From Gemmatimonadota bacterium (GTDB lineage Bacteria; Gemmatimonadota; Gemmatimonadetes; Gemmatimonadales; Gemmatimonadaceae): DNA of 38,683 bases. The notes under the pieces were generated by a model that was given only the letters and a program-made list of their open reading frames with translations, searched no databases and had not been told where the DNA came from. Of this stretch, positions 7,579-22,267 are shown piece after piece. How positions within the stretch are numbered: the first letter of the stretch is position 1; each line of letters begins with the position of its first letter. The translations under genes and the position numbers were made by a program. The DNA is taken from contig CANHJV010000014.1 of the NCBI GenBank assembly GCA_947461225.1, forward strand, positions 1 through 38,683, in the 5' to 3' direction.

Positions 7579-7579
7579 C

Positions 7580-9376
7580 CTACGCGGTCGGCACCGGGGG
7601 GAGGAGGCCACGCGCGGCGAGATCCACTTCATCGCGGAACTTCAGCGCGGTGTGGGTGCCGTCGCAAAAGGGCTTGGTTTTTGAGCCACCGCAGCGACAG
7701 AGCGTCACGCGGTTGCGGGTTTCGAACGGCTGGCCATCGGCGCGATGCACGGGGATCCCACCGGTTACCCAGAGCGGACCGGCAGAGAGTCCTGAGGCCG
7801 CGGTGACGGCGATGGCGACCGGCAGATCGGGCTCGATATCCGGGCCACCGGCTTCCGCGGCGTAGGTGTACGCGCCCGACGGGCACCGGTCGATCATGCC
7901 GATGATGCGCGAGCGCATGTCGCTATCGGTGGCGTCGGCCATGAGGTCGGGGATTTTTTGCATGCGGGCCGCGCAGAATCCGGAGCCCATGCAGAGCGCA
8001 CTGTCCTTCTTGACCACGAGCCCGGAGCCGGCGGCCGCGGGCACCGAGTCGGACGCGGCCGACCCCGGCACCACCTTGGCGCGATCGGCGTTGAGGCCGG
8101 TGTCCGCGCCTTCGCGGCCGTCAAAGCGAATAATCGCGTGCGTACCGTCGCAGAACGGCTTGGCTTTGGAGTGGCCGCAGCGGCAGAGCGCGTACGTCTC
8201 TTCGGCGGCAAGCGTTTCGGTTTTCCGCCACGTCAACGAGACACCGGCTTCCGTGACCACTTTCTGTTTCCGCACGAGCGGCACATCGCCGTACACCAGA
8301 TACGGGCCGTTGGGGACGACGGTGATTTTTTTGGACGAGGCCCCGGCGAGATGGCGCAGCGCGGGCGCGATGTACTCGAAGCTGGGGCCGACGGTGGTAT
8401 CGCCGTCACCCGTGGGGAGCTGCATCAGGCCGATGGCCAGCTCCCGCAGTCCATACATGGCGCCGGTGGCGACGCGAAGCAGATTCGGGCTGCCGTTGAA
8501 GGTTTCTTCGAGGAGGTGGAGCGCGCCGCAGTATGCGTGATTGAATTCGTCGAGCTGCACGCGGATGGCGCTGCCTTCGGGATAGTCGGCGCTGCGCGGG
8601 TTGGGCTTCATGTTGTAGACGGCGTCCCAGTCTACCACCACCGCTTCGCCCGTCGGTCCTGACTGCGCGGTGTCCCCTGCCTGATAGCGACGGCCTTGCG
8701 CCAGCTGGTTGTAGCGGAAGTAGTGCCCAACCTCATTGCGCTCCGGGTGGAACATGTCGGTGTCGCCGTCCCAGATACTCTCGTGGGCCAGTCCTTCGCC
8801 TTGGTCGATGATCTCCTGCATCGCGGCTAACGCCGATGCCAGATCGTACACCTCGATAATGCGTCCGCTGCCCCCGTAGTACAGGGCGTCGGTGATTTGC
8901 CGCGACCGATCACCGCAAAACACGGTGGCCTCACCCAACTCCTCGCACAGCCGAATGAGCCCCGCTTCGAGTTCGGCGTAGAACTCGCCCAGGGTGTTGT
9001 ACACGTCGTCCTGCCCGGTGCCGCTGGACTCGGCGGGTCGCTCGATCTGGAGAAATACGTCGAGCGCCTCGGGCGAGAACTTCAGCAGCGGTACTTGAAA
9101 CGCCTTGCCGCTGTGCGGGAAATACGCCGGGTACGTGGGCATGATCGCCGGCGTGTCGATCTTCGGCTCACCGCCGATGGCGTTGAGGAGATTGGCGGCA
9201 AGCGTAAGATGCAGCATCTCCTCCATGAAGACGCTGAGGATGACGTGGCTCGCTTCGGTGTTCGTCCCGGCCTTGATGGAATACAGGGCGCACAGGTACG
9301 GCGGCAACGTGAAATGCTCTAAGTCGATCGCCCACTGTACGTGCTGGCGAAGGTCCTGCAGGGTCTTGAGGGCCAT
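7580..9376 (-). CDS. VioB-type ferritin-like protein fused to CDGSH / 4Fe-4S / CDGSH domains
   Basis: A multidomain protein of 598 residues. The N-terminal part is the ferritin-like domain found in the iminophenyl-pyruvate dimer synthase VioB. It carries E20-H21 in DLEHFTLPPYL, E52/E53 and H56 in MEEMLHL, then NAIGGEPKIDTP, YPAYFP and KFSPEALDVFLQIERPA. The C-terminal part has two CDGSH iron-sulfur motifs, CRCG..KPFCDGTH near 398-413 and 560-575, each with the expected three Cys and one His for a 2Fe-2S cluster. Between them is a segment with C462, C468 and C498 (CMGSGFC and DRCPSGA) resembling the divergent 4Fe-4S domain Fer4_19. No signal peptide. A redox role is likely but no reaction can be assigned. 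The violacein genes themselves are absent. A paralogous ferritin-like protein lies at 14296-15354. Confidence 0.85.
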   Translation of the reverse strand: MALKTLQDLRQHVQWAIDLEHFTLPPYLCALYSIKAGTNTEASHVILSVFMEEMLHLTLAANLLNAIGGEPKIDTPAIMPTYPAYFPHSGKAFQVPLLKFSPEALDVFLQIERPAESSGTGQDDVYNTLGEFYAELEAGLIRLCEELGEATVFCGDRSRQITDALYYGGSGRIIEVYDLASALAAMQEIIDQGEGLAHESIWDGDTDMFHPERNEVGHYFRYNQLAQGRRYQAGDTAQSGPTGEAVVVDWDAVYNMKPNPRSADYPEGSAIRVQLDEFNHAYCGALHLLEETFNGSPNLLRVATGAMYGLRELAIGLMQLPTGDGDTTVGPSFEYIAPALRHLAGASSKKITVVPNGPYLVYGDVPLVRKQKVVTEAGVSLTWRKTETLAAEETYALCRCGHSKAKPFCDGTHAIIRFDGREGADTGLNADRAKVVPGSAASDSVPAAAGSGLVVKKDSALCMGSGFCAARMQKIPDLMADATDSDMRSRIIGMIDRCPSGAYTYAAEAGGPDIEPDLPVAIAVTAASGLSAGPLWVTGGIPVHRADGQPFETRNRVTLCRCGGSKTKPFCDGTHTALKFRDEVDLAARGLLPPVPTA

Positions 9377-9633: not shown

Positions 9634-10272
9634 ATGGAAAAGATCTCAAAAGAACGACTTGGCGCGCTTTCGGATGGGGTGATTGCCATTGCCGCAACCT
9701 TGCTGGTCTTGGGCCTTTCCGTGCCGGACGGGGACCCGCTGTCGTCGGATGTGCTGTTCCATTGGCTGCGGATTTTTGCAGGATGGGCGATCAGCTTTAC
9801 GGTCATCGCGATCGTGTGGTTTGATAACCATTTCCTGCTCGCCCAGACGACCCATTTGAACCTGAGGCTGGCGCGTTACGCGTTGTTGCAATTGGCGATG
9901 GTGTCGCTGATTCCGTTCGCGGCCGATCTGGTAACGGAGTATCCGAAAAATATCAGCGCGTCACTCGCCTTCAATGGAATCATGCTGGCGAACGGTCTGT
10001 CTTCGGCCTTGATCTCACTGCATGTCGCCCGTGCGCCGGAACTGCATATCGGCGCCCATGTCGCGGCCGTGATGGAGAACCGTGCGCGATACAAGGCGGC
10101 GCTTTATATCATGATCGCGGTCATTGCCGCGCTTGGCGCGTGGACACAGCATCTGTTCATCGGTGTCGCGCTGTGGGTGCTGAGCCCGTTGGTATCGGAG
10201 CATATGCTGCATCGCTGGATCGACCGATTCGGATCGAAGACCAGTCACCACGCGGCTCCACCGGCCGCTTGA
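9634..10272 (+). CDS. TMEM175-like (DUF1211) integral membrane protein
   Basis: A 212-residue protein with several hydrophobic segments. The start region, KERLGALSDGVIAIAATLLVL, is the first helix of bacterial TMEM175 potassium-channel relatives, whose signature is R...FSDGvfaIa.T; here the Phe is a Leu (LSDG at 12-15). Further predicted helices follow near 43-62, 75-100, 110-128 and 150-185. If it acts like its relatives it conducts K+ across the inner membrane, which is family knowledge only. The start ATG has only a weak AGGG upstream. The gene ends inside a strong stem-loop and converges on the long minus-strand cluster. Confidence 0.75.
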   Translation: MEKISKERLGALSDGVIAIAATLLVLGLSVPDGDPLSSDVLFHWLRIFAGWAISFTVIAIVWFDNHFLLAQTTHLNLRLARYALLQLAMVSLIPFAADLVTEYPKNISASLAFNGIMLANGLSSALISLHVARAPELHIGAHVAAVMENRARYKAALYIMIAVIAALGAWTQHLFIGVALWVLSPLVSEHMLHRWIDRFGSKTSHHAAPPAA

Positions 10273-10288
10273 TGCGGCCGGTGGAGCC
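10254..10288. terminator. Perfect 15-bp stem-loop ending two convergent genes
   Basis: Arms at 10254-10268 (GGCTCCACCGGCCGC) and 10274-10288 are exact reverse complements around a TTGAT loop. The left arm lies in the last codons of the TMEM175-like gene, and the stem is followed on the + strand by GTTTG. The position, between the stops of convergent genes, fits a bidirectional terminator, although the T-run is short. Confidence 0.6.
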
Positions 10289-10300
10289 GTTTGACGGTCA

Positions 10301-11092
10301 TCAGGCCGGAACGGATTCGTCCAGCATCGCGACATAGGCGTCATTATCGGGCAGTTCGATGGCGGGCATGTCTGCGATACGCTTGATCATGTCGCACATC
10401 TTGTCCACGTTCTTGCGTTCGACCGGCCCGTGGCCGCTGACCAGCATCTTGGCACCGAGTTTCTTGATCTTCTCGGCACCCTCGGCCAAGGCTTCGGCTT
10501 TGACATGCTCGAACCAGATATGATTGGCGCGGTTCATGAAAAAGAATCCGTCCTCGAAGTCGGACGCCGACATTTCGTCGGTGTACTCCGGAATTTGGGC
10601 TCCGACCACGCCGAAGCAATCGGCGCCGTAATAGATCTCGGATTTCGGATCCCAGATCCCGGTCGTGGCTGACGAGTCGAACAGCGGAGGACGGATTGCC
10701 GCCACGGTACGGTCGCCGATGTCGAGCCGTCCGCCGTCATTCAGGATATGGATGCGGCGCGGATCGAAATCGAATTCTTCGTGCAGTTTTCCCAAGCCGA
10801 GGAAGTTGGTCACGAGTTTCGCGTTCGGGCAACGCTCCATGATCTGGACGATGGAACCGGAATGGTCGCGGTCTTCATGGCTCAGGAACAGCCAGCGCAC
10901 GTCTTTCGGTTCGACGATCGCGAACACTTCTTCCAGGAAGTAATCGCGATGCACGATCGCCAAGGTGTCCAGGATCATCGGTTCCTTGCCCATGAGGACC
11001 ATCGCGTTCACAGGCAACTTGCCGACGCCCGGAACCGGAAGGTCCGCGGGAATGACGTGAGCTTCGTGGGAAATCTTGTATGAGCGGGCCAT
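10301..11092 (-). CDS. ODP-type metallo-beta-lactamase-fold diiron protein (no flavodoxin domain)
   Basis: A 263-residue protein with the oxygen-binding diiron domain fold of flavodiiron proteins. The iron-site motif SHEDRDHSGS lies at 71-80. The flavodiiron consensus is HxExDHSGS, so D74 replaces the usual glutamate while H72, D76 and H77 remain. A later GADCFG aspartate and a VSGHGP histidine complete the set of ligands. The flavodoxin half of true flavodiiron reductases is missing, so an O2/NO-sensing or other hydrolytic or redox role is possible. The start ATG has an excellent GAAGGAGAGG site, and the frame open upstream to 11314 overlaps the neighbour and is rejected. It is the last gene of the minus-strand cluster but sits behind an intrinsic terminator. 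Confidence 0.82.
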   Translation of the reverse strand: MARSYKISHEAHVIPADLPVPGVGKLPVNAMVLMGKEPMILDTLAIVHRDYFLEEVFAIVEPKDVRWLFLSHEDRDHSGSIVQIMERCPNAKLVTNFLGLGKLHEEFDFDPRRIHILNDGGRLDIGDRTVAAIRPPLFDSSATTGIWDPKSEIYYGADCFGVVGAQIPEYTDEMSASDFEDGFFFMNRANHIWFEHVKAEALAEGAEKIKKLGAKMLVSGHGPVERKNVDKMCDMIKRIADMPAIELPDNDAYVAMLDESVPA

Positions 11093-11117
11093 CGCCTCTC
11101 CTTCAGCGTGGTTCAGT

Positions 11118-11150
11118 AAAAAACATCGGCTGGACAATGTGCCCAGCCGA
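11118..11150 (-). terminator. Intrinsic terminator within the cluster
   Basis: On the minus strand an 8-bp stem (TCGGCTGG / CCAGCCGA, 11126-11133 with 11143-11150) is followed at once by a run of six T (11123-11118). It lies 11 bases after the stop of the small barrel gene and about 26 bases before the ODP start codon, leaving no room for a separate promoter. It should therefore limit, not abolish, expression of the ODP gene. Confidence 0.7.
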
Positions 11151-11160
11151 CGGGAGCCAT

Positions 11161-11466
11161 TTATTCGTAGTGGTCCTTCAGCTCGTAACGGGTCATCCGG
11201 AAGGACGACATGTCGATCAGCGCCGTGAAGGCTTTGGTGCCTTCGTTGCCGACGAACTTGTCCATGGATGCCTGTGCATCTTCCATCGCGGCCCAATGCA
11301 GCACGACGACCCAATCGCCATCGGCCGATTTGCCGGTGTCGCGGTCAAGGAAGCCATGCAGCTTGCCAAGGAATTCGCGTTCCATCTTCATCGTTTCGGC
11401 GATGAACGCTTCGTCGGTGACGCCGGGCTGAAGCCGGATGTTCACGATCTCGATCGTTTTTGCCAT
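11161..11466 (-). CDS. Small dimeric alpha/beta-barrel protein (ABM-like)
   Basis: A 101-residue protein. The pattern of an opening strand IEIVNIRLQPGVT, helix DEAFIAETMKMEREFLGKL, strand GDWVVVLHWAAMEDAQASM and the closing helix fits the ferredoxin-like dimeric alpha/beta barrel used by antibiotic-biosynthesis monooxygenases, stress barrels and related proteins. No catalytic residue can be named, so function is open. The start ATG has a strong AAAGGAGAG site. It follows the epimerase by 27 bases in the same operon, and an intrinsic terminator stands just after it. Confidence 0.65.
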   Translation of the reverse strand: MAKTIEIVNIRLQPGVTDEAFIAETMKMEREFLGKLHGFLDRDTGKSADGDWVVVLHWAAMEDAQASMDKFVGNEGTKAFTALIDMSSFRMTRYELKDHYE

Positions 11467-11493
11467 GGTCCTCTCTCCTTTGTGAGTGGTCGA

Positions 11494-12399
11494 TTAACAG
11501 GTGCCTGCCGCGTGGACAGCGCCGCAGGAGTCGCATGTGCTCGTCTCGCCGAAATAGATTTCGGCATGTTTGGCGCGAAGAAACTTGAGTGACTCGCGCG
11601 CCAAGGCTTCGGGGCTTTCGGCATAGTCGCGCCAGATGCAAACCAGACCCGCGAGCCGTTCAATGCCCGGATTGAAGCTTTCGACGCCGATGGCGTAGTC
11701 GTAGCCGATGTCTTTCAAGGCCTGAAAGGTCGCATCCCATGGCACCATGTCACGCCCGGCAACGCCGCGCTGGCTGCCGCAGGCGTGGAAATAGCCCAGC
11801 CGCGAGCCGGTCATGCGGATCGCTTCGGCCATGTCGTCTTCTTCGCGGATCATGTGGAACGTGTCGAGATGGACTTTGCAATTCGGCAGCCCGACCTCGT
11901 CGATGAAGCGGCAGGCATCGGCTGCCGTGTTCAGGTAATGGCTTTCGAACCGGTTGAGCGTTTCGACGGCAATGGTCAGGCCGGTTCCGGCGGCGTATTC
12001 GCCGATTTCACGGTACGCCTCGACGCCCCAGTCCCATTCGTCCTGCGACCGGCGGCGACCCGTGAGGTAGCCCCACGCGCAGTAATTGGCTCCGCAATAG
12101 ACCTCGACTCCGGCTTCAACGCACAGGTCTACGACCCGCTTCGACAGGTCGATACCGCGACGGCGCACGCTGGCATCGGGGCTGATCGTATTCGCATCCT
12201 TGGGGAGTGCGAAATTGGCGTTCAACGACAAGCCCAGATCGCGGGCACGCTGACCGAGCATCTTGGCGGGAAAGGTTTCAGGATTGACCGGCGTGACTTC
12301 GAACACCGAAAAGCCCATCGCCTTCACGCTGTCGCACAGCGCCACGTCGCGTTCTTCGAAGCTGCCGGAAAAGAGCAGCGAGTTGACGGCAAACCGCAT
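11494..12399 (-). CDS. Sugar epimerase of the D-tagatose/D-psicose 3-epimerase type (TIM barrel)
   Basis: A 301-residue TIM barrel. The four metal and catalytic residues of ketose 3-epimerases are present: E146 (AVETLNRFE), D179 (VHLDTFHM), H205 (YFHACGSQRG) and E240 (GVESFNP). Their spacing (33, 26 and 35) equals that of E152/D185/H211/E246 in the Pseudomonas cichorii tagatose epimerase, and an Arg just after the His is also kept. It probably interconverts C3 epimers of a ketose or keto-cyclitol with a divalent metal. The C-terminus carries an extra Cys-rich tail (CDSCGAVHAAGTC) that is not part of the fold and may bind metal. The start has a good AAAGGGGA site; it lies 3 bases after the DUF296 gene. 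Confidence 0.85.
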   Translation of the reverse strand: MRFAVNSLLFSGSFEERDVALCDSVKAMGFSVFEVTPVNPETFPAKMLGQRARDLGLSLNANFALPKDANTISPDASVRRRGIDLSKRVVDLCVEAGVEVYCGANYCAWGYLTGRRRSQDEWDWGVEAYREIGEYAAGTGLTIAVETLNRFESHYLNTAADACRFIDEVGLPNCKVHLDTFHMIREEDDMAEAIRMTGSRLGYFHACGSQRGVAGRDMVPWDATFQALKDIGYDYAIGVESFNPGIERLAGLVCIWRDYAESPEALARESLKFLRAKHAEIYFGETSTCDSCGAVHAAGTC

Positions 12400-12402
12400 G
12401 GA

Positions 12403-12897
12403 TCAATCCCCTTTCTGGTTGGGCTGCAATAGAACCAGACCCGATGACAGGTCCAGCCCACGCTGCAAATGCACCGGGCTTTCTTCGATCACCAATTCCA
12501 TCGTCGGTCGCACGAAGCCGGCAATGAGATGCCCGCCGCGCGTCGTCGCGTCGCTCAGGCCGACGACGCAATGCACATGCAGATGCGGACCTGGCTTTGC
12601 GGCATCGCCGTCGCCGTCATCATCGTCGGAGTCATCGTCGCCGTCGCCCGCGATGTTGCCGAGCATCGACAACACCTCGGACTGGACCTCGACTTCGTTG
12701 CGGTGGAAATCCTTGGTCACGGGATCGAAATGACCAAGACAGCACCTGGAAAATGCCCCGAGGCCCGAGATCGTCGATCCCGACAGCTGTTGCGCGACCG
12801 CGAAGGCGGTGATCGCGGTCAGCGCCTCTTCGCCGGCATCGAGGACCAGGACGAATTTGCGCTGGCCGTTGTTGGTTTCGAGCAAGGTGTGACGCAC
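12403..12897 (-). CDS. DUF296/PPC-domain protein with an acidic insertion
   Basis: A 164-residue protein related to the PPC (plants and prokaryotes conserved)/DUF296 family. These form trimers and carry a metal-binding His set; here HLHVHC at 105-110 and GGH at 121-123 supply it. An unusual run of Asp and Gly (residues 84-98, bases 12604-12648), made of GAT/GAC/GGC codons, is inserted just before the His motif. The start is a GTG at 12897 without a convincing ribosome site, 2 bases after the IolE stop, so coupling to IolE translation is likely. Function is unknown, though the bacterial PPC fold need not imply DNA binding. Confidence 0.75.
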   Translation of the reverse strand: MRHTLLETNNGQRKFVLVLDAGEEALTAITAFAVAQQLSGSTISGLGAFSRCCLGHFDPVTKDFHRNEVEVQSEVLSMLGNIAGDGDDDSDDDDGDGDAAKPGPHLHVHCVVGLSDATTRGGHLIAGFVRPTMELVIEESPVHLQRGLDLSSGLVLLQPNQKGD

Positions 12898-12899
12898 GG

Positions 12900-13796
12900 T
12901 CAGATGCCTGCCGTCTTGCGGATGTATTCACGGGCCATGCGCGCGTATTCCAGCGGATTGGCCTTCAGTGCGTCCTGTTCTGCCTCGACCATCAGCCAGC
13001 CGGCGAAATCATTGTCGGCGAGCACCTTGAAGATCGGTGCAAAGTCGATCGCGCCGTCGCCTGGCACGGTGAAGACGCCTTCCATGACGCTTTCGATGAA
13101 CGTGCGGTTGGTCGCGTTGCAGCGCACCATCACGTCGTGACGGATGTCCTTGAGGTGGACGTGCTTGATGCGTGTGGCATAGGCGCGGGCGAGTTCGAGC
13201 GGATCGTCGCCCGCCCAGTACAGATGCCCGGTGTCCAACAGCAGGTGCACCACCTCGGCATCGGTTTCGGCCATCAGCCGGTCAACCTCGGGCCGGAACA
13301 TGACACCGGTGCCCATGTGGTGGTGGTAACACAGCTGCATGTCGTTGTCGGCGGCGATGCGGCCAAGTTCGTTCAGCCCTTCGGTCATCGCCTTCCATTG
13401 GTCGGCGTTGAAGTAGGGCTTGTTGGCGATGGTGGGCACGGGCTGCTGGTGCACGGCATGGCCCAGTTCCGCGACCACGACCGACTTGCCGCCCATCCGC
13501 TTGATGAACGCCATCGACTCGCGGAAGCTTTCCAGCGTCCGCTCGCGCATGTTGTTGACGGTGAAATAGGTGCTCGACCACGGTTCGGAAACCCGCAGGC
13601 CGCGCTGCGACAACTCGCGTTCGAGCACGTCGGGGTCGCGGGGGAATTTGTGGCCGACCGAGCACCCTTCATATCCGGCGAGCGCCATTTCCGAGACGCA
13701 TTGCCCGAACGAGATGTGATCACCCAGCGCGGGGTAATCGTCGTTGGTCCATCCGGTCGGCGTGATGCCGACGAACACCTTGCTGCGATCGAACAT
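12900..13796 (-). CDS. iolE: Myo-inosose-2 dehydratase (IolE)
   Basis: Dehydrates scyllo-inosose (2-keto-myo-inositol) to a trihydroxycyclohexanedione in inositol catabolism. The 298 residues match the family length. Signatures shared with Bacillus IolE are GITPTGWTNDDYP near the start, YHHHMGTG, VHLLLDTGHLYWAGDDP, IKHVHLKDIRHDVM, FTVPGDGAIDF, MVEAEQDALKANPLEYA. The metal-binding Glu/Asp/His/Glu set of this TIM barrel is intact. An ATG at 13802 overlaps the previous stop (ATGA) but its GGAG lies only 2 bases away, whereas the ATG at 13796 has GGAG 8 bases upstream and is chosen. None of the usual partners (iolB, iolC, iolD, iolG) is in the window, which leaves the source of its keto substrate to the GMC dehydrogenase next to it. 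Confidence 0.92.
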   Translation of the reverse strand: MFDRSKVFVGITPTGWTNDDYPALGDHISFGQCVSEMALAGYEGCSVGHKFPRDPDVLERELSQRGLRVSEPWSSTYFTVNNMRERTLESFRESMAFIKRMGGKSVVVAELGHAVHQQPVPTIANKPYFNADQWKAMTEGLNELGRIAADNDMQLCYHHHMGTGVMFRPEVDRLMAETDAEVVHLLLDTGHLYWAGDDPLELARAYATRIKHVHLKDIRHDVMVRCNATNRTFIESVMEGVFTVPGDGAIDFAPIFKVLADNDFAGWLMVEAEQDALKANPLEYARMAREYIRKTAGI

Positions 13797-13798
13797 GG

Positions 13799-14284
13799 TC
13801 ATAGCTCCTGACGCGGATCGGGGATACGGGGGGCGTGGGCCCACATGGCGTAGCCATGCGGCTTGACCCCGGCAGGGTTGGCACCGATCGACGGCCAAAG
13901 CAGTCCTTCGGTATAGGCGGCGGGGGTGGGCACGCAGTCGACATCGTCGATCGCGCCGCCATGGGCCGAATGCCAGTCGGTGGTCATCGCGTGCCAGACG
14001 CCGACGAACCAGAGTTTCAGCAGGCTGCGGGCCGCAGGCCCGAGCCGTGCGTCCGACAGGATGTGGTGGCGCAACTGCCGTGGCACGTCCGCGGCGTTTT
14101 CGGCTGCGGCCGAGCGGGCCGCCGCATGGGCGGCGAGCAGGGCGGCAAAGGCCGTCGTGCCCAGCCGTTCGGTTAACAGCGCGACATAGGTGTCGGTCAA
14201 CCCCGTGGACTGCAACCGGAACACGGAAGCTCCGGTCAGGTCCGACGAAAGATCGAGGAACGCGTCATGTTGCGTGCGGGTCAT
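13799..14284 (-). CDS. Sugar/polyol dehydrogenase small subunit (FAD-SLDH-like)
   Basis: A 161-residue protein resembling the small subunit of membrane-bound FAD sorbitol/fructose dehydrogenases. It opens FLDLSSDLTGASVFRLQSTG (family: LS..LTG...LD), has a helical middle and ends with AAYTEGLLWPS...KPHGYAMWAHAP (family: Y..ALMW.P.....P.G...WA..P). In that family the small subunit stabilises and helps export the GMC catalytic subunit. Here no Tat or Sec signal is visible. The ATG at 14284 has AAGGAG that overlaps the stop of the ferritin-like gene; a GTG at 14299 is rejected. The assignment is by overall pattern, so moderate. Confidence 0.6.
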   Translation of the reverse strand: MTRTQHDAFLDLSSDLTGASVFRLQSTGLTDTYVALLTERLGTTAFAALLAAHAAARSAAAENAADVPRQLRHHILSDARLGPAARSLLKLWFVGVWHAMTTDWHSAHGGAIDDVDCVPTPAAYTEGLLWPSIGANPAGVKPHGYAMWAHAPRIPDPRQEL

Positions 14285-14295
14285 GGCTCGCTCCT

Positions 14296-15354
14296 TCACG
14301 CCGGGGTGATTTCAAAGGTCGGTGCCGCGTTCAGTCCCGATCCGTCATCGAGCGGATGGCGCATGAGCTGCAGCATCGATTCCTTCAGGCGGAACATCTC
14401 GCCCACCGCCTGCATGAACAGGTCGGGGGCGCCGTCGAAGGCGCGGGTGAGCAGGCCGAGATAGGCCAGATAGTCGGCGTTGAACCGTTCGGAGGCCGCA
14501 CGCAGGGCGGTGCCCGGTGCCAGGTCGGCAACGCGCGCATCGGTCTTGATGGGGTGGACGGCCGACCAGTCTACCGGAACCTCGCCGCCTGTCGGATGGT
14601 CGGGCTTGTCGCCCGCGACGTAATACCGACCGAGCACCAATTGCTGGAACCGGTAGTAATGCGCGATTTCGCCGTCTTCGTCGAAGATATGGCCGGTCAC
14701 GCCCTCGCCCTGTTCTGCGATCAGGTCGAGCGCGGCCTTGGCGGACGCCAGATCGGTGACCTTCACGATGGCGCCGCCGCCGGAGTAATACTGTTCGGGC
14801 CCGATCTGCCGGGCCGGATCGCCACTGAACAGGGCGGCGCCCATTTCCGCGTGCAGATGGTCCAGGCCCGCTTCGATGGCCTTGTAGAACTCTCCGATGG
14901 AGAAGAAGTGTTCTTCGTCGTCACGGCCCGGGTGGCCTGCCGACAACAGATGCGGCTTGCGGCTGCGGCGGTTCAGGTTTCCGTGCACGGTGCCAAGCGA
15001 CGCCGGGCGTTCGATCTTGAGGAAAGATTCAATCGCTTCGGGCGAGAACTTTTGCAGGCTGACCGCAAAATCCTCTTCGCCATCAGGCAGATAGGCGGGA
15101 TAGCGCGGAACGAAGCCCGGCGTGGTGAGGTCGGGCTTGCCGCCGATGGCGTTGATCAGGTTGCCGACCAGTGTCAGGTGCAGCATCTCTTCCACCGCGA
15201 CGGCACGAAGGATGTGGAACCCTTCGCTGTTGGTGCCCGGCTTGATGGAGTACAGCGCGGTGAGATACAGCGGAATGGTCGCATGTTCGAGTTGCAGCGC
15301 CGCGTAGAGGTGGCGGTGCAGGCTGTCCATGTCGGTGATGCGAAAGAGGCTCAT
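14296..15354 (-). CDS. VioB-type ferritin-like protein
   Basis: A 352-residue protein with the same ferritin-like domain as the N-terminus of the protein at 7580-9376. The diiron-type ligands are E23-H24 (LEHATIPLYL), E55/E56 and H59 (VEEMLHLTL), followed by NAIGGKPDLTTP, YPAYLPDG, KFSPEAIESFLKIERPA and an IAHYYRFQQLVLGRYY stretch. No iron-sulfur tail is present. In violacein-type pathways VioB forms an imine dimer, but those partners are missing; next to a GMC dehydrogenase it more likely acts as an electron-transfer or peroxide-handling partner (inference). The start ATG overlaps the GMC stop (ATGA), so the two are translationally coupled. Confidence 0.85.
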   Translation of the reverse strand: MSLFRITDMDSLHRHLYAALQLEHATIPLYLTALYSIKPGTNSEGFHILRAVAVEEMLHLTLVGNLINAIGGKPDLTTPGFVPRYPAYLPDGEEDFAVSLQKFSPEAIESFLKIERPASLGTVHGNLNRRSRKPHLLSAGHPGRDDEEHFFSIGEFYKAIEAGLDHLHAEMGAALFSGDPARQIGPEQYYSGGGAIVKVTDLASAKAALDLIAEQGEGVTGHIFDEDGEIAHYYRFQQLVLGRYYVAGDKPDHPTGGEVPVDWSAVHPIKTDARVADLAPGTALRAASERFNADYLAYLGLLTRAFDGAPDLFMQAVGEMFRLKESMLQLMRHPLDDGSGLNAAPTFEITPA

Positions 15355-17237
15355 GCGAGAGCTCCCGTGGTCGTGGTGGCGGCGGGAGCGGCAAGACGCC
15401 CGGCGATATGTTCGGCGGTACGCAGGCACAAGGCGGCCAGCGTGAGGGTGGTGTTGGCCGTACCGATGGTCGGCATCGACCCCGCACCGGCAAGGTAGAG
15501 GTTCGGGTGGTCCCACGATTGCTGCGTGTCGGTCACCACCGAGTTGCGCGCCGTGGTGCCCATCATGTGCGTGCCGGCCCAGTGATTGCCGCCGCGCATC
15601 ACGTAGCCCTCGCCGTTGTGGGTCACCCAGCCCGGCGCGTTGGGGTCGTAGCTGGTGTGGTCATGCGCCCCGAGGCGCTGGTAGATGCGCTTGGTCAGAC
15701 CGCGCGAGAAGGCCGCGGTCTCGAGCGTATACTGCGGCAGGTCGAACGAGATCACGGGCCGCAGGTTGCCCATCTGGTCGGTGTAGCGCGGATCAACCGT
15801 GATGCGGTTTGACGGATCGGCCGGCACCTCGATCATGCAGTCGATCAGGATCTGACGGGCGACGGTGTCGATCAGCCCTTGCCGGAGCTCAGCGCCGATC
15901 AGGTTCTTGTTGTCGACCAGATCGTACAGGTCGCTGTAGGGGCCGCCCGTGGCCCAGCCCCAGCCGTCGTTGTGTACGGAAAAGCGCACGGCGGCGTGCT
16001 GGCTGCGGTACTGGCCGGTGCGGATGTCTTCGATCCCCGAGGTGCAGATCGGACCACGCATCACGCCAATGGGTTCGGGCATGAGGGCCCATGTCAGCAG
16101 ATAGGCATGGTCCATCAGGTTGCGCCCGACGAGACCGCTGCTGCCCTGCAACCCGGACGCCAGCATGAGCCGCGCATTTTCGACCGCGTTGGCCGCCAGC
16201 ACGAAGGTCTTGGCCTTGAACGTACGAGTGACGTGGCCCGGACGATCGGGGTGGTCGTAGGTCTTGGCCTCGATCGCGGTGACCGCGCCAGTGGCTGAGT
16301 CGATCACCACCTTTGAGGCAACGGTTTGCGCCAGCAGATGCACGTTCCCGGTCGCCATGGCCTGCATCAAGGTGCGGCGGGCATCGTATTTCGCCTGCAC
16401 CGGACAGATCGGCACACAGTTCGTGTTGCCCTGACAGCGGCCGCCCATTTCGGCCTGATCGGTGCTGACCGCACCGTTGGGGCGGAAGCCCTTTCCGCCG
16501 TCATAGGCCGCATTCGGCACGCCGTTGCGTGCCTGCGGCGTGGTGCGGATCTTGAGCGCGAAGCTTTCGCCGGCAAGTTCGACCGGCATCCCGTCGATGT
16601 CGCGTGCCAGCACCTGATCGAGATAGCTCGCCGGCATCTTGTGCATCGGCAAGACGTAATCGTCACCGAAATCCAGCCCGCCATAGCCCTGATCGGCCAC
16701 GTCCCCCGACACGCCCAGTTCGGCTTCCGCGGCGCGGTAATACGGGTCGAGCGCCTGATACGACATCGGCCAATCGGCGCCCACGCCGAAGAGGCTGTGC
16801 ATCTGGAAATCGTCGGGCAGCATACGCAGCGCCTTGCCCTCCCAGTGGCGGGTGGTGCCGCCCAGCACGCGGGAATACGTGCTGTCGATCTCGAGCGGGC
16901 CCTTCTGCACCAGATAGCCGCTGGCATTGATTTGGCCGTCATGCAGTTTGACCGCGTCAAAGTCCCGCGGCATCGGCGCGTTCAACGCGTTGTGGTAGGC
17001 CGCGTTGTTGTCCTTGCTGACCGCGCCATAGAACCGCTGCACGTTTTCTTCGTAGTCGCCGACGGTTACGTCATTGCCCGATCCGGCCTCGATCACCAGC
17101 ACGCGGCGGCCTTGTTGGCCAAGGCGTTTGGCGATCAGCGCACCGCTGACGCCCGAACCGATGACCACCGCATCGTAGTGGGTCTTGGCAGCGACATCCG
17201 GCTCGATGGTGAACCGTTTGATTCCATGGGTCGTCAT
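15351..17237 (-). CDS. GMC-family FAD-dependent sugar/polyol dehydrogenase, large subunit
   Basis: Oxidises a sugar or polyol hydroxyl using FAD. The 628 residues contain the FAD loop VIGSGVSG (GxGxxG at 27-32), GGTTRHWEGKALRM near 127-141 and the C-terminal GTHMMGTTARNSVV with probable catalytic His near 557 and Asn near 595. C268, C274 and C278 in GRCQGNTNCVPICPVQAKY match the region that carries a 3Fe-4S cluster in FAD glucose dehydrogenases, so this may be an electron-donating dehydrogenase and not an oxidase. There is no signal peptide. The ATG at 17237 has GGAG 8 bases upstream. It is coupled to the ferritin-like gene and accompanied by a small subunit gene. Substrate not determined. 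Confidence 0.9.
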   Translation of the reverse strand: MTTHGIKRFTIEPDVAAKTHYDAVVIGSGVSGALIAKRLGQQGRRVLVIEAGSGNDVTVGDYEENVQRFYGAVSKDNNAAYHNALNAPMPRDFDAVKLHDGQINASGYLVQKGPLEIDSTYSRVLGGTTRHWEGKALRMLPDDFQMHSLFGVGADWPMSYQALDPYYRAAEAELGVSGDVADQGYGGLDFGDDYVLPMHKMPASYLDQVLARDIDGMPVELAGESFALKIRTTPQARNGVPNAAYDGGKGFRPNGAVSTDQAEMGGRCQGNTNCVPICPVQAKYDARRTLMQAMATGNVHLLAQTVASKVVIDSATGAVTAIEAKTYDHPDRPGHVTRTFKAKTFVLAANAVENARLMLASGLQGSSGLVGRNLMDHAYLLTWALMPEPIGVMRGPICTSGIEDIRTGQYRSQHAAVRFSVHNDGWGWATGGPYSDLYDLVDNKNLIGAELRQGLIDTVARQILIDCMIEVPADPSNRITVDPRYTDQMGNLRPVISFDLPQYTLETAAFSRGLTKRIYQRLGAHDHTSYDPNAPGWVTHNGEGYVMRGGNHWAGTHMMGTTARNSVVTDTQQSWDHPNLYLAGAGSMPTIGTANTTLTLAALCLRTAEHIAGRLAAPAATTTTGALA

Positions 17238-17295
17238 GTGCACGTCTCCAGATCACGGCAAGAATTTTGGGGCACGGGAACGCGGGGCTGGCGCA

Positions 17296-19995
17296 TCAGG
17301 AGACACCCCCCGCTTTTTTCTTGGCTTTGGGTTTTGCGACCGGTTCCGCAACGTCGTTGCGGGCCAGTTCCTCGATCAGCACGGCGACCAGGCCTGTCCA
17401 TCCGGTCTGGTGCGATGCGCCGATGCCGGCGCCGATGTCGCCATGGAAGTACTCGTAGAACAGGATGTTGTCCTTCCACGCCGCGTCGTCCTGCATCTTT
17501 GTCGTGCCGCCGAATACCGGACGGCGGCCATCGGCGCCGCGTTCGAACAGCGCGACCAGACGGCGGGACAATTCGTCGGCCACGGCGTCGAGTGTCATCA
17601 TCTGGCCCGAACCGGTCGGGCATTCGACCGTGAGCGTGTTGCCGTAATGCGCGTGGTAACGGCGCAGCGAGTCGATCAGCAGATAGTTGATCGGCATCCA
17701 GACCGGACCGCGCCAGTTGGAGTTGCCGCCGAACATGCCGGAATGGGATTCGGCCGGCTGGTATCCGGCTTCGAATCCCTGTCCCTCGACCTCGATGCGG
17801 AAGGGTTCGTCGAGATGTCGCTTGGACAGGGACCGGATGCCGTAATCCGACAGCATTTCGGCCGGGTCCAGCATGGGCTTGAGCAAGCGCACCAGCTGGT
17901 CTTTGGACATGAAGGACAGCAAGAGCGCATGGGCTTCATGTCCGTCGGTATCCGCGATGCGACCGAAGAGGTCAGACTGACGCTCGCGGAACCAGTCGAT
18001 CCGGCTGGCGAAGGCAGGCGTGTCGGCCTGCTTGAGGGCTGCAAGGTCGAGGTCGGCCACGGCGATCAACGGGATGAGGCTGACCAGCGACCGCGCTTTG
18101 AGCGGGTGGAACTGGTCCCCGATCCGCAACACGTCGTAGTACAGGCCGTCCTCTTCGTTCCACAACGCGGCGCTGCCCTCGGACTCGCGTCCCAGATGGT
18201 CGAGGGCATCCGCGATCAGCGCGAAATGCTGGAAGAACTTGCCGGCCAGCTCGTGATGTTCCGGTTCTTCATCGGCCAACAGCTTGGCCGCCTGCATCAT
18301 CTGCAAGGCGAAAAACGCGACCCATGTCGTGCCGTCCGACTGGTACAGCCGTCCGCCGCCGGGCAGGTAGCCAGACGAGCGGTCGAATACGGAAATGTTG
18401 TCCAGTCCGAGGAACCCGCCCTGATAGAGGTTGTTGCCCTCGGCATCTTTGCGGTTGACCCACCACGTGAAATACAACAACCCGTGGTCCAGCAGGCTGC
18501 GCAGGAACGAGCGGTCGAGCGTGCCGGTGGTGCGCAATTCATAGTTGGCGATCTGCAAACCGGCCCAGACCTGCACGGGCGGGTTCACATCGCCAAAGGC
18601 CCATTCATAGGCGGGCACCTGGCCGTCCGGCCGCATGTACCATTCCCGCGTCAGCAGCAGGACCTGCTGCTTGGCAAAGGCAAGGTCGGTGCGGGCAAGC
18701 ACGACGGTGTGGAAGCACAGGTCCCAGCTGGCGAACCACGGATATTCCCATGTGTCGGGCATCGAAATGATGTCCTCGGCATAGAAGTGACGCCATTCCT
18801 TGTTGCGCCCGTGGTGGCGATCCGACGGTGGCGGCACGTCGTCGCCGTCAAGCCAGTCGCTGACGATGTAATGGAAGAACTGCTTGGACCAATGCATGCC
18901 GGCGTGGGCCTGACGCGCGATGCGGCGGCGGTCCGGGCTGATCGTGGCGGGGATACGGTCGGCGTAGAACGCATCGGCTTCTTCGATGCGCGTGGCAAAG
19001 ACCGCCTGTGCGTCTGCGCCGACGCCCACGCCCGCCGCGGTGGTGGACAGGCGCAGGGTGATCGTCACCTCTTCGCCCGCGGGCACGTCGCGGCGGTAGA
19101 TCGCGCTTGCCTTGGTGCCGGTGGCCGCCGGATTGACCGTGGCCGCGCCCGACACGACGTGATCGTTGATCCCGTCCTTGGGGAAGGCCGCCCCGTCGCG
19201 CCCGTAGAGGCGGCGGTTGTTCGTCTCGTTGTCGCAGAACACGAGGGAATCCGCGCCGGGGCAGGCAAGCTGCATCGCATCCATCTCGGGATGCGCGATG
19301 GTCACGCGGTCGCCGTCGCGGCCAAGCTGCGGACGGGCCGCGCCTTGCTCCCAGCTCCATGTGTTGCGGAACCAGACCGTCGGCAACAGCCAGATCGGAT
19401 GCGACTCGGGTCCGTGGTTGCGAGCGGTGATCCGGATCAGGATGTCGTCGACCGACTGCTTGGCGTATTCGATGCTGACATCGAAATAGCGGTCCTCGTC
19501 AAACACGCCGGTATCCATCAATTCGTATTCGAGCGCCGCGGAATCCGTGGCCTTACGATGGGCGTTTTCCTGCAACAGGTCGGCATACGGAAAGGCCGCG
19601 TGCGGATACTTGTAGAGCATCCGCATGTAGCTGTGGGTCGGCGTCGAGTCCTGATAGAAGTAGTATTCCTTGACGTCCTCGCCGTGATTGCCCTGATCAT
19701 TGGTCAAACCGAACAGGCGCTCTTTCAGGATCGGATCCTTGCCGTTCCACAGGCCCAACGAAAAGCACAGGCGCTGCTTCACATCGCTAATGCCGCCGAT
19801 CCCGTCCTCGCCCCAGCGGTAGGCGCGCGAGCGCGCGTGGTCATGGGGAAGATGGTCCCACGCGGTGCCGCCCTCGCTGTAATCTTCGCGCACGGTGCCC
19901 CACTGGCGTTCGCTCAGATAGGGGCCGAAAAAACGCCAGTCGGCTTGGCCTGCATCGGCCTGATTCAGTCGAAGATCTTCTGCGGTGTTGGTCAT
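17296..19995 (-). CDS. GH63-family (MGH1-like) glucosidase
   Basis: An 899-residue intracellular glycoside hydrolase of the (alpha/alpha)6 type, similar in layout to yeast YMR196W and to bacterial GH63 enzymes. It opens with [20 protein letters not shown] and [13 protein letters not shown], the characteristic N-terminal block. The central [17 protein letters not shown] carries the probable acid Asp; [18 protein letters not shown] and [12 protein letters not shown] near the C-terminus carry the probable base region. No signal peptide. Characterised relatives cleave alpha-glucosidic bonds, for example in glucosylglycerate or mannosylglycerate; the substrate here is unknown. Pairing with the debranching enzyme upstream suggests alpha-glucan or glucoside breakdown. 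The ribosome site is weak and the spacing to the upstream gene is 25 bases. Confidence 0.85.
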
Positions 19996-20020
19996 GACGC
20001 GCCGTGCAAGAATTTGATGA

Positions 20021-22048
20021 TTAGAGGGCCGGACGGGCGATCAGCGCCCACGCCCGCAGGAGTTCAGCCACGCTCCACGCTTGCGCGATGCAGCCGCGCG
20101 GGGCATGAGGCGCGTCACCTTCGAAGATTTCGCTGACGGTTCCCAGCCCCTCGATCCGCAGCTGGTCGGCCAGCGGCCGCAACAGATCGAATGCCCGCGC
20201 CGGATCGGCGTAGGTGTCGAGATGGGCTTCGATGAACGGACCGATCAGCCAGGTCCACACGGTACCCATGTGATAGGCCGCGTCGCGCGCCGTCTGGTCA
20301 CCGCCGTAGCGACCCACATAGCCCGGCTCACTCATGCCCAGCGACCGCAGGCCACAGGCGGTCCACAGTTCGGCCTCGCAGACGGCGACCACCTTGGCCG
20401 CCTGCTCGGCGCTCAGCGCTCCGGTGGCTGCGCGGGCGGCGAGGATCTGGTTGGGACGCAGCAGGCTTTCATGCCCGTTCGGACCGTCAAGCACGTCGAA
20501 ACAAAAGCCGCGCTCGGGGTTCCAGAACCGCTGGAAGCCCTGAACCGCGGCGTCGAGCAGGGCGCGGTAGGGCGCGGGGTCATGGCCAAGCTGCGCCGCC
20601 GCGCGGAGCATGAAGCGCAGGTTGCTGATCCACAGCGCGTTGACCTCGACGGGCTTCCCGATGCGTGGCGTCACCACCCAGTCACCGACCCGCGCATCCA
20701 TCCATGTCAACTGCACACCCGGCTCTCCGGCCCGGATTAGCCCATCGGAGGGATCGAGGCCGATACCGTAGCGGGTGCCGCTCCGCAGATGCGCCATGAT
20801 CTGCTCGAGCGCCGGAAACATCTCGGCCAGAAATTCTGGATCAGGGGAGGCTGCATCGACCGCCGCGATGGCCTCGACAAACCAGAAGGTCGCATCGACC
20901 GTGTTGAATTCGGGTGCGCTGCCGGCATCGGGAAAGCGGTTCGGGATCATGCCCTGATCCATCACATCGGCAAAGGCACGCAGGATCGACCGGGCGATCT
21001 CGGGCCGCCCGGTGACCAGAGCCAGCCCCGGAAGACTGATCATGGTGTCGCGGCCCCAATCGGCAAACCAGTGGTAGCCCGCGATCACGGTATGGGCGGG
21101 CGTTCCGTCACGCAGGGTGCGGCGAACGACGAACTGGTCCGCGGCAAGCACCAGACGGCGCACCCACTCGGGCGCGTCCTGTACCTGGGCGCGATCGAGC
21201 AGGGCCGTTTGTCGTGCACGTTCCGCCGCCTGCGCGGTCGGGTCAGGACGAGCGGCAGTCTCGCCGGTCGAGAGCACCAGTTGCACGGGCAGGCCGACGG
21301 GCAAGGGCGCCGTCAGACTACCCGAATGGATGTGGTCTTCATGGTCGGTGAGGCCACGCTGCCGCTCGGAGACCAGTCCGACATCGCGCCACCAGGCGCC
21401 GTCTGCCGTGGCATAGCCGTTTTCCAGCACCGCATGAACCGACACCGGCCCGAACTGCGTCGTCAGGCGGCCGGCCTGCGCCTCGATGTCGGGACGCCAG
21501 TCCGAAGCGAACGTGCGCGAATGGTAATCGCGGCAATCGGTCAGCACCTCGACCGACAACGTCACATCGGCGGGGGCGCGCAAGACGGTGTAGGACAACC
21601 GCGTGACGTTGGCACCGTGATCCATCCACAGCCGCCGTTCGAGCGAGACCCCGCGACATTCGTAGCGCCATACCGGCGAGGTGCCATCCAGCGTAACGGA
21701 GACGAGCGCCTCGGAGGCCTCCGGCGAGACGGTGCCGTCGGCCCAGTGCATTGCTGTCAGGGCAATCCGGCGATCCCCGACCACAACCGTCTCGACCAAG
21801 GCTGGCACCAGCACGCGCCGGTCAACCGGAGGGGCGAGCGCAGCCACGAGAAGCCCGTGATAGGCACGCTGAGGCGCGCCGGACAGGCTGCTGGAGGCGT
21901 ATCCGCCCATCCCGTTCGCCACCAGCCATTCCGGGCCAACGTCGGCGGCAGGGTTCAGCGCGTCACGGCCGAACACGGAAATCGGAAGGGCATCCATCAA
22001 CAACGCTCGAGCTTCGGCATGCAGTCTTGATGGAGTCTCGCGAACCAT
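20021..22048 (-). CDS. Amylo-alpha-1,6-glucosidase / glycogen debranching enzyme (GH133)
   Basis: Removes alpha-1,6-linked glucose or oligosaccharide branches from glycogen-like glucans. The 675 residues show the bacterial debranching layout: an N-terminal beta domain with EWLVANGMGGYASSSLSG and RAYHGLLVAAL, then the (alpha/alpha)6 domain with AGYHWFADWGRDTMISLPGL (catalytic acid region), FNTVDATFWFVEAI, QLTWMDARVGDWVVTPR, GKPVEVNALWISNLRFML and FIEAHL. No signal peptide is visible. The start ATG at 22048 is uncertain; a second ATG at 21997 precedes the first conserved block and neither has a good ribosome site. It is the first gene of the minus-strand cluster and its upstream region holds the putative promoter and operator. 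Confidence 0.9.
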   Translation of the reverse strand: MVRETPSRLHAEARALLMDALPISVFGRDALNPAADVGPEWLVANGMGGYASSSLSGAPQRAYHGLLVAALAPPVDRRVLVPALVETVVVGDRRIALTAMHWADGTVSPEASEALVSVTLDGTSPVWRYECRGVSLERRLWMDHGANVTRLSYTVLRAPADVTLSVEVLTDCRDYHSRTFASDWRPDIEAQAGRLTTQFGPVSVHAVLENGYATADGAWWRDVGLVSERQRGLTDHEDHIHSGSLTAPLPVGLPVQLVLSTGETAARPDPTAQAAERARQTALLDRAQVQDAPEWVRRLVLAADQFVVRRTLRDGTPAHTVIAGYHWFADWGRDTMISLPGLALVTGRPEIARSILRAFADVMDQGMIPNRFPDAGSAPEFNTVDATFWFVEAIAAVDAASPDPEFLAEMFPALEQIMAHLRSGTRYGIGLDPSDGLIRAGEPGVQLTWMDARVGDWVVTPRIGKPVEVNALWISNLRFMLRAAAQLGHDPAPYRALLDAAVQGFQRFWNPERGFCFDVLDGPNGHESLLRPNQILAARAATGALSAEQAAKVVAVCEAELWTACGLRSLGMSEPGYVGRYGGDQTARDAAYHMGTVWTWLIGPFIEAHLDTYADPARAFDLLRPLADQLRIEGLGTVSEIFEGDAPHAPRGCIAQAWSVAELLRAWALIARPAL

Positions 22049-22117
22049 GAAACCGACGAGTCTTGGCCCTAGGCTCCTGACTGTTTCAGCAACTGGAAAC
22101 GCCGCCTAGCCGCTGCC

Positions 22118-22146
22118 AATGTATGCAAGGTCGGTGGCGGACTCAA
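22118..22146 (-). promoter_or_regulatory. Candidate sigma-70-like promoter of the catabolic cluster
   Basis: Reading the minus strand, TTGAGT (22146-22141) is followed by exactly 17 bases and TACATT (22123-22118). Each box matches 4 of 6 consensus positions, and the pair lies 70 bases before the debranching-enzyme start. The -35 overlaps the right arm of a perfect palindrome, as expected for a repressible promoter. This is a visual match, not tested. Confidence 0.4.
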
Positions 22147-22168: not shown

Positions 22169-22267
22169 CACGCCCTCATTCGCGTCTACCCCTCCCCCGA
22201 GGAGGCGCATCCGTATGGTTCGGCGTTTACGCCGCCAGCACCGCGGCGCGTCGGCGGGAGGCCGTCT

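Follow-up and report, generated by a model that had tools for sequence, protein, structure and literature searches.

A ten-gene cluster of a Gemmatimonadota bacterium belongs to a gene set of at least seven phyla and may encode a route through a 2-keto sugar

Which reactions does a compact cluster catalyse that joins glucan hydrolases, a flavin dehydrogenase, a ferritin-like protein and an enzyme named after inositol catabolism? Such a cluster lies in a contig of a Gemmatimonadota bacterium (CANHJV010000014.1, assembly GCA_947461225.1), of which we analysed a stretch of 38,683 nucleotides, here called the window. The original prediction knew of no described pathway for the set and proposed a route that frees a glucoside or cyclitol, oxidises it to a ketone and then dehydrates or epimerises it. 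Titles and abstract beginnings in the open-licence PubMed Central literature likewise yielded no description of the set. Versions of the gene set occur in at least seven named bacterial phyla, and the window cluster is one of them. We give an even chance to the reading that it represents a horizontally gained form of a widespread bacterial route, leading from alpha-glucan via glucose to glucosone and on to dehydration and isomerisation.

The ten genes and the inserted unit

As predicted, ten open reading frames occupy positions 10301-22048, all on the minus strand; neighbours overlap slightly or are separated by no more than 68 bases. Reading frame and conservation favoured other starts for five genes: 17237 for GMC, 15354 for the ferritin-like protein, 14284 for the small subunit, 13796 for IolE and 11092 for ODP. 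The cluster begins with a GH133-type amylo-alpha-1,6-glucosidase (20021..22048; GDE_N and GDE_C, PF12439 and PF06202, 186.3 and 378.6 bits), which partially matches PDB debranching enzymes (E 1e-17). It is followed by a GH63/MGH1-like alpha-glucosidase (17296..19995; PF22422 and PF03200, 59.9 and 38.6 bits) with one weak PDB match, a mannosyl-oligosaccharide glucosidase (E 2.6e-5). Next are the large subunit of a GMC flavodehydrogenase (15351..17237; GMC_N/C, PF00732 and PF05199, 52.3 and 50.3 bits), a ferritin-like protein (14296..15354; PF12902, 227.3 bits), a probable GMC small subunit assigned from its predicted fold (13799..14284) and an IolE-type dehydratase (12900..13796; AP_endonuc_2, TIGR04379). 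The remaining genes encode a PCC/DUF296 domain protein (12403..12897; PF03479, 76.7 bits), a TIM barrel resembling D-tagatose/psicose 3-epimerases (11494..12399; AP_endonuc_2, PF01261), a small protein (11161..11466) and an ODP-type protein of the metallo-beta-lactamase fold (10301..11092; PF19583, 55.5 bits). Most of the families originally named were recovered with Pfam and NCBIfam; 13799-14284 and 11161-11466 gave no match in these profile searches. The latter has no family match even at E values up to 1, and its label "small barrel" is that of the original prediction.

The inserted unit covers approximately 7552-22228 and is thus longer than the ten-gene span. It also contains a second ferritin-like protein on the minus strand (7580..9376), in which PF12902 (208.1 bits) is fused to two CDGSH domains (PF09360, two stretches, 131.0 bits) and a divergent 4Fe-4S domain (PF06902, 31.2 bits), and a TMEM175-like channel gene on the plus strand (9634..10272; PF06736). 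Five of seven sister stretches have both flanks without the segment. A GMC tree built from 59 dereplicated rows, of which one is unlabelled, nests the window inside the alphaproteobacteria, in a clade with loci L053, L054 and L055 (support 100/99), and four alphaproteobacteria share all ten genes in the same order. Since the GMC gene is nested in this way and sister loci lack the cluster, it was gained recently by horizontal transfer from Alphaproteobacteria. An origin from this group had been proposed from the style of the genes; it is upheld by both the tree and the empty site. The GC content of the cluster is indeed lower than that of the flanks (0.636 versus 0.668 and 0.664), but composition by itself is weak evidence of transfer, and the cluster is poorly separated from its flanks. 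A mis-binned contig was ruled out: the flanks match genomes of the same genus in the same order with 82-95% DNA identity, and flank proteins reach identities of 97-98%.

Distribution of the gene set

Related loci were compared in the best 80 of 174 by GMC similarity, a sample in which rhizobia and Streptomyces are over-represented; all counts out of 80 refer to it. The neighbourhood is conserved in other genomes: GMC, ferritin-like protein, GMC small subunit, IolE and alpha-glucosidase occur together in 72 of these best 80 loci. Four of the 80 repeat the ten-gene order of the window, which makes the grouping more than chance. IolE is present in 77/80 loci and the position of the TIM barrel, filled either by this protein or by a propeller, is occupied in 78/80. 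The accessory genes are more variable: an ODP protein or its rhizobial counterpart is found in 49/80 loci and a counterpart of the small protein in six, and the PCC/DUF296 gene is confined to the four loci of the ten-gene form (4/80) and the same-genus locus L037. The second ferritin-like protein has its best match in none of the best 80 loci (0/80).

Several further genes accompany the set. The TMEM175-like gene is a recurrent neighbour, occurring in the fetched stretch of eight of the best 80 loci as well as in L037 and the window. Homologues of the NCBIfam heme_bind_FMP protein were found in 11/80 loci. A DyP-type peroxidase and a DJ-1/PfpI protein adjoin the cyanobacterial copy, and luxI/luxR-type genes adjoin rhizobial copies.

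The hydrolases come from families that act on alpha-glucans and are exchanged between loci. The GH133-type gene has the same place in L053, L055, L056 and L058, and in many other loci GH63/GH133 is replaced by GH15, with at least five switches on the GMC tree. The two types are not exclusive, as both occur in L064 and L081. Alpha-glucosidase genes were counted in 75 of the best 80 loci, and a reference search left five (5/80) without one. In four of these five, L066, L068, L074 and L076, a relative of a trehalase-like GH15, a family scanned in L073, is encoded no more than about 8 kb from the GMC gene. This relative may be a flank gene; the count was therefore kept at 75/80. A route through 1,5-anhydrofructose was considered but not adopted, GH31 glucan lyases being outside the search.

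The dehydrogenase and the two proteins sharing one position

The GMC large subunit resembles the FAD/3Fe-4S sugar dehydrogenases, its nearest PDB entries being glucose dehydrogenase 6a2u (E 2e-65) and fructose dehydrogenase 7w2j (E 4e-63). The cysteines of its C-x5-C-x3-C motif (C268, C274, C278) align with those of 6a2u and 7w2j, are invariant in 8/8 sequences and are positions that we take to bind 3Fe-4S. Homology over the full length together with this motif places the protein among the FAD/3Fe-4S sugar dehydrogenases. For the small subunit, a sequence profile found nothing in the PDB (best E 0.59). Its AF2 model (pLDDT 88.7) has fructose dehydrogenase chains 9jqa_B and 8jej_B as the top two of 350,542 PDB chains, with probabilities of 0.95/0.98 but an E value of 0.07. 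According to the model, 13799-14284 is thus a probable GMC small subunit that leans to the fold of the fructose dehydrogenase small subunit. Wherever a GMC2-type gene is present (11/11 loci), two small-subunit-type proteins accompany it; in four Flammeovirga loci a single small protein goes with two GMCs.

Unlike the glucose and fructose dehydrogenases, the segment has no CxxCH heme motif in any ORF of at least 60 amino acids overlapping 7500-22300, and carries a ferritin-like protein in the operon instead. An ORF with three CxxCH motifs, as expected for a multi-heme cytochrome c, was found in 0/80 of the best 80 loci. The ferritin-like protein (AF2 model pLDDT 87.8; match to 3hl1, E 3e-11) has the diiron-type residues E23, E56, H59, E229 and H232. 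E56, H59 and H232 are conserved in 35/35 proteins, E23 in 34/35 (one gap) and E229 in 34/35 (one Asp), while E155, which should also be a diiron ligand, is conserved in just 26/35. The iron-sulfur fusion of the second ferritin-like protein would be in keeping with electron transfer as a function of this family.

The TIM barrel matches tagatose 3-epimerases of the PDB (E 3e-43), and D-psicose 3-epimerase (NF051856) is its nearest family with 174.6 bits, below the cut-off of 300. Window-type and rhizobial-type barrels are just 17% identical. Within the fetched stretches of the best 80 of 174 loci, the position is held by a TIM barrel in 64 and by a propeller in 14, by both in none and by neither in two (L054 and L093), where the contig ends. 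HMMs upheld the exclusion on all 90 loci, although the absence of the barrel carries little weight at L065, L084 and L095, since these propeller contigs are short or end early. A propeller is also present in L048, and the propeller label changes at least seven times on the GMC tree. The one member tested, from L096 (421 aa), matches PF22301 (146.6 bits) and aldos-2-ulose dehydratase 4a7k (E 1.2e-59). The match to this fungal enzyme, which has 900 residues, covers only its residues 79-432. A presumably catalytic His, which by our count corresponds to chain position 155 of 4a7k, is invariant in 15/15 propellers. PF22301 is rare in the phylum of the window (13/298 genomes), was found in 0/14 control genomes and is missing from 25 of the 26 TIM-barrel-type genomes searched; an AUDH-family dehydratase was not found in the window or its genome.

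The TIM barrel therefore fills the position that an aldos-2-ulose dehydratase propeller holds elsewhere. Aldos-2-ulose dehydratase acts on C2-keto sugars at C3/C4, and ketose 3-epimerases act at C3 beside a C2 ketone. One position filled by either protein points to a 2-keto hexose, glucosone, as the intermediate.

A candidate route and its rivals

In the route that we favour, exo- and debranching alpha-glucosidases, taken to be cytosolic, would free glucose from an alpha-glucan such as glycogen, with GH133 and GH63 acting in the window and GH15 in most other copies. A three-part complex of the GMC flavoprotein with its probable 3Fe-4S cluster, the small subunit and the diiron-type ferritin-like protein would then form glucosone (D-arabino-hexos-2-ulose) by oxidation of glucose at C2. 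Where related enzymes usually employ cytochrome c, the ferritin-like site may hand the electrons on to O2. By removal of a proton beside the ketone, IolE and the epimerase-like TIM barrel could convert glucosone to a deoxy-dicarbonyl or enolone sugar, the barrel doing the job of the aldos-2-ulose dehydratase-family propeller in other copies. The DUF296, small and ODP proteins might rearrange or finish the product. The predicted sequence of hydrolysis, ketone formation and dehydration or epimerisation fits in outline. Of the two substrates originally proposed, a cyclitol is unlikely; the substrate is likely glucose from alpha-glucan and the ketone likely at C2.

The case for a cyclitol rests on IolE. 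The window protein scores 368.5 bits with TIGR04379 (cut-off 290) and matches IolE with E 2.5e-72, the cut-off is passed in 40/40 genomes, and IolE carries the annotation myo-inosose-2 dehydratase. In a comparison of 85 IolE rows from the cluster with 9 from iol operons, which excluded three actinobacterial iol rows, the two kinds have 14 near-invariant charged positions in common. The set also resembles the IolG-IolE-IolD-IolB pathway in coupling a ketone-forming oxidation to a subsequent dehydration. Inositol or cyclitol catabolism with GMC in place of IolG was the first idea suggested by the name IolE, and was dropped on the IolB and IolD counts and the IolE tree. The genome of the window (88.7% complete) has no IolB match and a best IolD match of 20.5 bits against a cut-off of 715. 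IolB above cut-off is absent from 24/40 genomes with the set; in six of the 16 genomes that have it, it lies no more than about 1 kb from a second IolE above cut-off. In the tree, 40 cluster IolE rows stand apart from 12 iol-operon rows (support 94/91). Because IolE forms a separate clade and 24/40 genomes lack IolB above cut-off, the set would hardly serve inositol catabolism. Oxidation in the set would moreover use flavin and not NAD, and the alpha-glucosidases would have no role, so that we consider this explanation very improbable. Just two positions separate the two kinds of IolE, too few to read a substrate from sequence.

Oxidation at C3 is a stronger competitor, if still an unlikely one. 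FeS-type GMC enzymes include glucoside 3-dehydrogenases, and a GMC product of this kind, a 3-keto-glucoside, could be cleaved, hydrated or epimerised by IolE and the TIM barrel. IolE weakly matches 8ro4, a 2-hydroxy-3-keto-glucal hydratase (E 3e-8), and the barrel 6wn6, a 3-keto-D-glucoside 4-epimerase (E 1e-14); neither comes near the matches to IolE and the ketose 3-epimerases in strength. Known 3-keto-glycoside pathways with TIM-barrel eliminases and hydratases (PMC10628242) share keto-sugar chemistry and barrels like sugar isomerases, but their sequence links to the IolE and barrel of the set are weak, and the terms IolE, inosose and GMC do not occur in the main text of that article. The position common to barrel and propeller fits a C2 ketone, and with alpha-glucosidase genes in 75 of the best 80 loci the glycosidic bond need not be cleaved by elimination. 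Less probable again, and distinctly so, is a system in which oxidation itself is the purpose, generating peroxide or reactive dicarbonyls for competition or redox balance. The diiron-type ferritin-like partner would fit it, as would the DyP-type peroxidase and DJ-1/PfpI protein, the heme_bind_FMP homologues in 11 of the best 80 loci and the luxI/luxR-type genes. Against it, the GMC protein resembles an FeS dehydrogenase more than an oxidase, and the retention of IolE and of the barrel or propeller implies a specific downstream product.

The glucosone route has difficulties of its own. The known sites of solved GMC relatives are C1 of glucose or C5 of fructose, not C2. IolE is also present in 12/14 propeller loci, which would place two dehydratase-like enzymes in one route. 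A TPP enzyme occurs in 43 of the best 80 loci, resembles 2-oxoacid decarboxylases in the one member scanned and would be unexplained by a cortalcerone-type end product.

The nearest known parallel is the fungal pyranose 2-oxidase/aldos-2-ulose dehydratase route to cortalcerone and microthecin. Both would start from glucose and oxidise a pyranose with a GMC-superfamily enzyme, and a homologue of the dehydratase propeller occurs in 14 of the best 80 bacterial loci. The bacterial set differs in having an FeS-type GMC with a small subunit and not a pyranose oxidase, in its IolE, and in a propeller without the further domains of its fungal counterpart or, as in the window, in a TIM barrel that replaces it. 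A passage of PMC11650716 gives pyranose oxidases as usable for making cortalcerone intermediates, and its reference list includes Koths 1992 for a two-enzyme synthesis. In its fullest form our proposal is a new inter-phylum pathway, in which the diiron ferritin-like protein would be third subunit and electron sink of an FeS-flavin sugar dehydrogenase, a repurposed IolE and the TIM-barrel "epimerase" would jointly replace aldos-2-ulose dehydratase, and storage glucan would be turned into a defensive or signalling sugar like cortalcerone or microthecin. This extended version is speculative, and we think it doubtful.

The mutual exclusion of two unrelated proteins provides a sharp and cheap functional test for both. 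If the proposal is true, genes of these loci would be wrongly annotated as "myo-inosose-2 dehydratase" and "sugar phosphate isomerase/epimerase", and a ferritin-like protein would accept electrons from a flavin sugar dehydrogenase, an unusual partner for such enzymes. A sugar-antibiotic route of the fungal type would then be widespread in rhizobia, Streptomyces, marine Bacteroidota, Pseudoalteromonas and cyanobacteria.

Gene content and origin of the cluster

The window comprises bases 1 to 38683 of contig C14, and the genome to which it belongs (3.7 Mb in 264 contigs) is 88.7% complete. Between positions 10301 and 22048 ten open reading frames are encoded on the minus strand, with small overlaps or gaps of at most 68 bases. 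The family names given to these genes in the original prediction were largely matched by Pfam and NCBIfam for eight of the ten; neither database returned a family for the 161-residue protein (13799-14284) or the 101-residue protein (11161-11466).

The DNA flanking the cluster on both sides is 82-95% identical to genomes of the same genus. Seven sister stretches were fetched, five of which have both flanks without the segment at approximately 7552-22228, with 0 to 4.7 kb of other DNA in its place; the remaining two stop short of the insertion site. At the empty site of one stretch, L159, the decarboxylase gene is also absent. Two further genes are located within the inserted segment, one coding for a second protein of the ferritin-like family PF12902, to which two CDGSH domains and a divergent 4Fe-4S domain are fused (7580-9376), the other for a TMEM175-like potassium channel (9634-10272). 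Thus, the gained DNA comprises the ten genes together with these two, and was acquired in one or more steps. In the GMC tree, the window is placed inside a supported alphaproteobacterial clade (100/99). The GMC of the same-genus genome G079 (locus L037; 64% identity) groups with a planctomycete GMC, apart from the window.

Conservation of the gene set and its neighbours

Plasmid relatives of the GMC were identified by tblastn in Rhizobium, Pararhizobium, Pseudoalteromonas and Persicobacter (54-57% identity). All five plasmid loci that were opened (L033, L034, L035, L036, L048) contain a ferritin-like protein, the small protein and IolE near the GMC, and four of them an epimerase-type TIM barrel. 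When GTDB contigs were scanned once with a profile built on eight GMCs, 174 relatives came up, and the 80 best of them were compared; this sample was chosen by matches to one gene and is rich in rhizobia and Streptomyces. Among these best 80 of 174 loci, the GMC is present in 80, the ferritin-like protein and the small subunit in 79 each, IolE in 77, an alpha-glucosidase (GH15, GH63 or GH133) in 75, and all five core functions jointly in 72; the ODP type was found in 49 and a TPP enzyme in 43. In the three loci where IolE was not seen, the sequence runs out before its position, because the contig itself finishes (L093) or because the fetched stretch does (L085, L091). Since L064 and L081 each carry GH15 as well as GH63/GH133, the two glucosidase types do not strictly exclude one another. 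The phyla with the set include Pseudomonadota, Actinomycetota, Bacteroidota, Planctomycetota, Cyanobacteriota, Myxococcota and Nitrospirota.

Four of the 80 loci have all ten genes in precisely the order seen in the window: Pararhizobium antarcticum (L053; GMC 79% and IolE 90% identical to the window), Rhizobium sp. FKL33 (L055), Salipiger aestuarii (L056) and Puniceibacterium antarcticum (L058). A 5.1 kb contig of a Sphingomonadaceae MAG (L054) carries GH63 through IolE. The four loci with the ten-gene order also share a 765-residue protein with an Erv1/Alr match and weak EF-hand matches (L058, 12172-14466), which was not found in the window.

Other neighbours recur as well. A TMEM175-like gene lies near the set in eight of the 80 loci (L061, L062, L063, L064, L068, L072, L084, L103), in L037 (8165-8827) and in the window. 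A LuxR-type regulator and an acyl-homoserine-lactone synthase are encoded near the set in L034 (6141-7666) and L033 (3557-5053), and relatives of these occur in 12 loci, ten of the 80 plus L033 and L034. In cyanobacterial copies (L047, 2873-8084; L078; L120) a galactose-oxidase-like protein, a DyP peroxidase and a DUF4440 protein adjoin the set. The TPP enzyme of the rhizobial reference L034 (16638-18293) is nearest to indolepyruvate decarboxylase (260.8 bits, cut-off 946); 38 of the 43 loci with relatives of it also have GH15, and this enzyme is outside what the proposed pathway explains.

The oxidase module

Along its whole chain the window GMC aligns with the FAD glucose dehydrogenase and fructose dehydrogenase large subunits, and three of its cysteines coincide with theirs; these presumably bind a 3Fe-4S cluster. 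The small protein model, built from 46 sequences, has a pLDDT of 88.7, and its two best PDB matches are fructose dehydrogenase chain B (probability 0.95 and 0.98, with an E-value of only 0.07). In the ferritin-like protein, E23, E56-x2-H59 and E229-x2-H232 are kept in at least 34 of 35 sequences and E155 in 26 of 35. No CxxCH motif is present in any ORF overlapping the inserted segment, and no ORF with three CxxCH motifs was found across the 80 loci. GMC, small subunit and ferritin-like protein might form a complex of three parts, the last of them taking the place that cytochrome c would otherwise have. Wherever a second GMC gene, of the GMC2 type, is present (11 loci), two small proteins are encoded; four Flammeovirga loci (L085, L086, L091, L096) have two main-type GMCs, yet in each a single small protein and a single ferritin-like protein were found.

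In four other genomes of the phylum (L038-L041) small subunit, GMC and ferritin-like protein are adjacent to one another, and no IolE is encoded within the fetched stretch. Here and in L046, a Cupriavidus plasmid, relatives of the ferritin part of the second ferritin-like protein adjoin small subunit and GMC; the window copy (7580-9376) has no adjoining GMC. The GMC reading frame is split into two parts in L046 (12542-14363) and in L050, a Sinorhizobium plasmid (8921-10791).

Steps after oxidation and the proposed pathway

Inositol catabolism was set aside on IolB counts, separate IolE genes and the IolE tree. In 40 genomes (those of the window and G079 and 38 of the 80, for which completeness is unstated, making single absences weak) IolE is over the family cut-off in all 40 and IolB in 16, with any IolB match in 20. 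In six IolB genomes the IolB-adjacent IolE is a gene other than the cluster IolE. The IolE tree (97 sequences dereplicated to 52 rows, 40 from clusters and 12 from inositol loci) separates both groups with 94/91, slightly below the threshold of 95 that the tool sets, and in 92% of bootstrap trees; one inositol row, L143, is from a locus with iolG genes and no iolD in the stretch.

Clustering of neighbours of the known genes revealed a propeller protein of approximately 421 residues in 15 loci (14 of the 80 plus L048; the contigs of L065, L084 and L095 are short or end early). One propeller was scanned and matched aldos-2-ulose dehydratase 4a7k (E 1.2e-59) and Pfam AUDH_beta_propeller; the His aligned with 4a7k chain position 155 is invariant in 15 of 15. 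BLAST and HMM searches found the epimerase-type TIM barrel (11494-12399 in the window) in none of the fetched stretches of the 15 propeller loci and the propeller in none of the 75 other loci examined. Among the 80 loci, 66 are without propeller; 64 of these have the TIM barrel, and in the other two the contig breaks off. A whole-genome search for PF22301 showed that it is missing from 25 of 26 TIM-barrel-type genomes, the sole exception (L102) having a weak copy elsewhere in the genome. The 59-row GMC tree requires at least seven changes of the propeller label, which differs between sister rows, e.g., L065/L068 and L061/L037. This mutual replacement suggests that propeller and TIM barrel share one substrate. 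Solved relatives of the TIM barrel are ketose 3-epimerases, and the fungal aldos-2-ulose dehydratase acts on 2-keto pyranoses. Among the references of PMC11650716 is the title of Koths 1992, on the two-enzyme synthesis of cortalcerone.

We infer at which carbon the sugar is oxidised, in which order IolE and the TIM barrel act, what accepts the electrons and what is finally made. Oxidation of glucose at C2, yielding glucosone, has in our estimate about an even chance of being correct; a route via 3-keto-glucosides, with oxidation at C3, is about half as probable and is kept as a rival. With oxidation at C2, the pathway would start with the release of glucose from alpha-glucan, the glucose would be oxidised at C2, and the product would then be dehydrated and isomerised, the last steps being variable.
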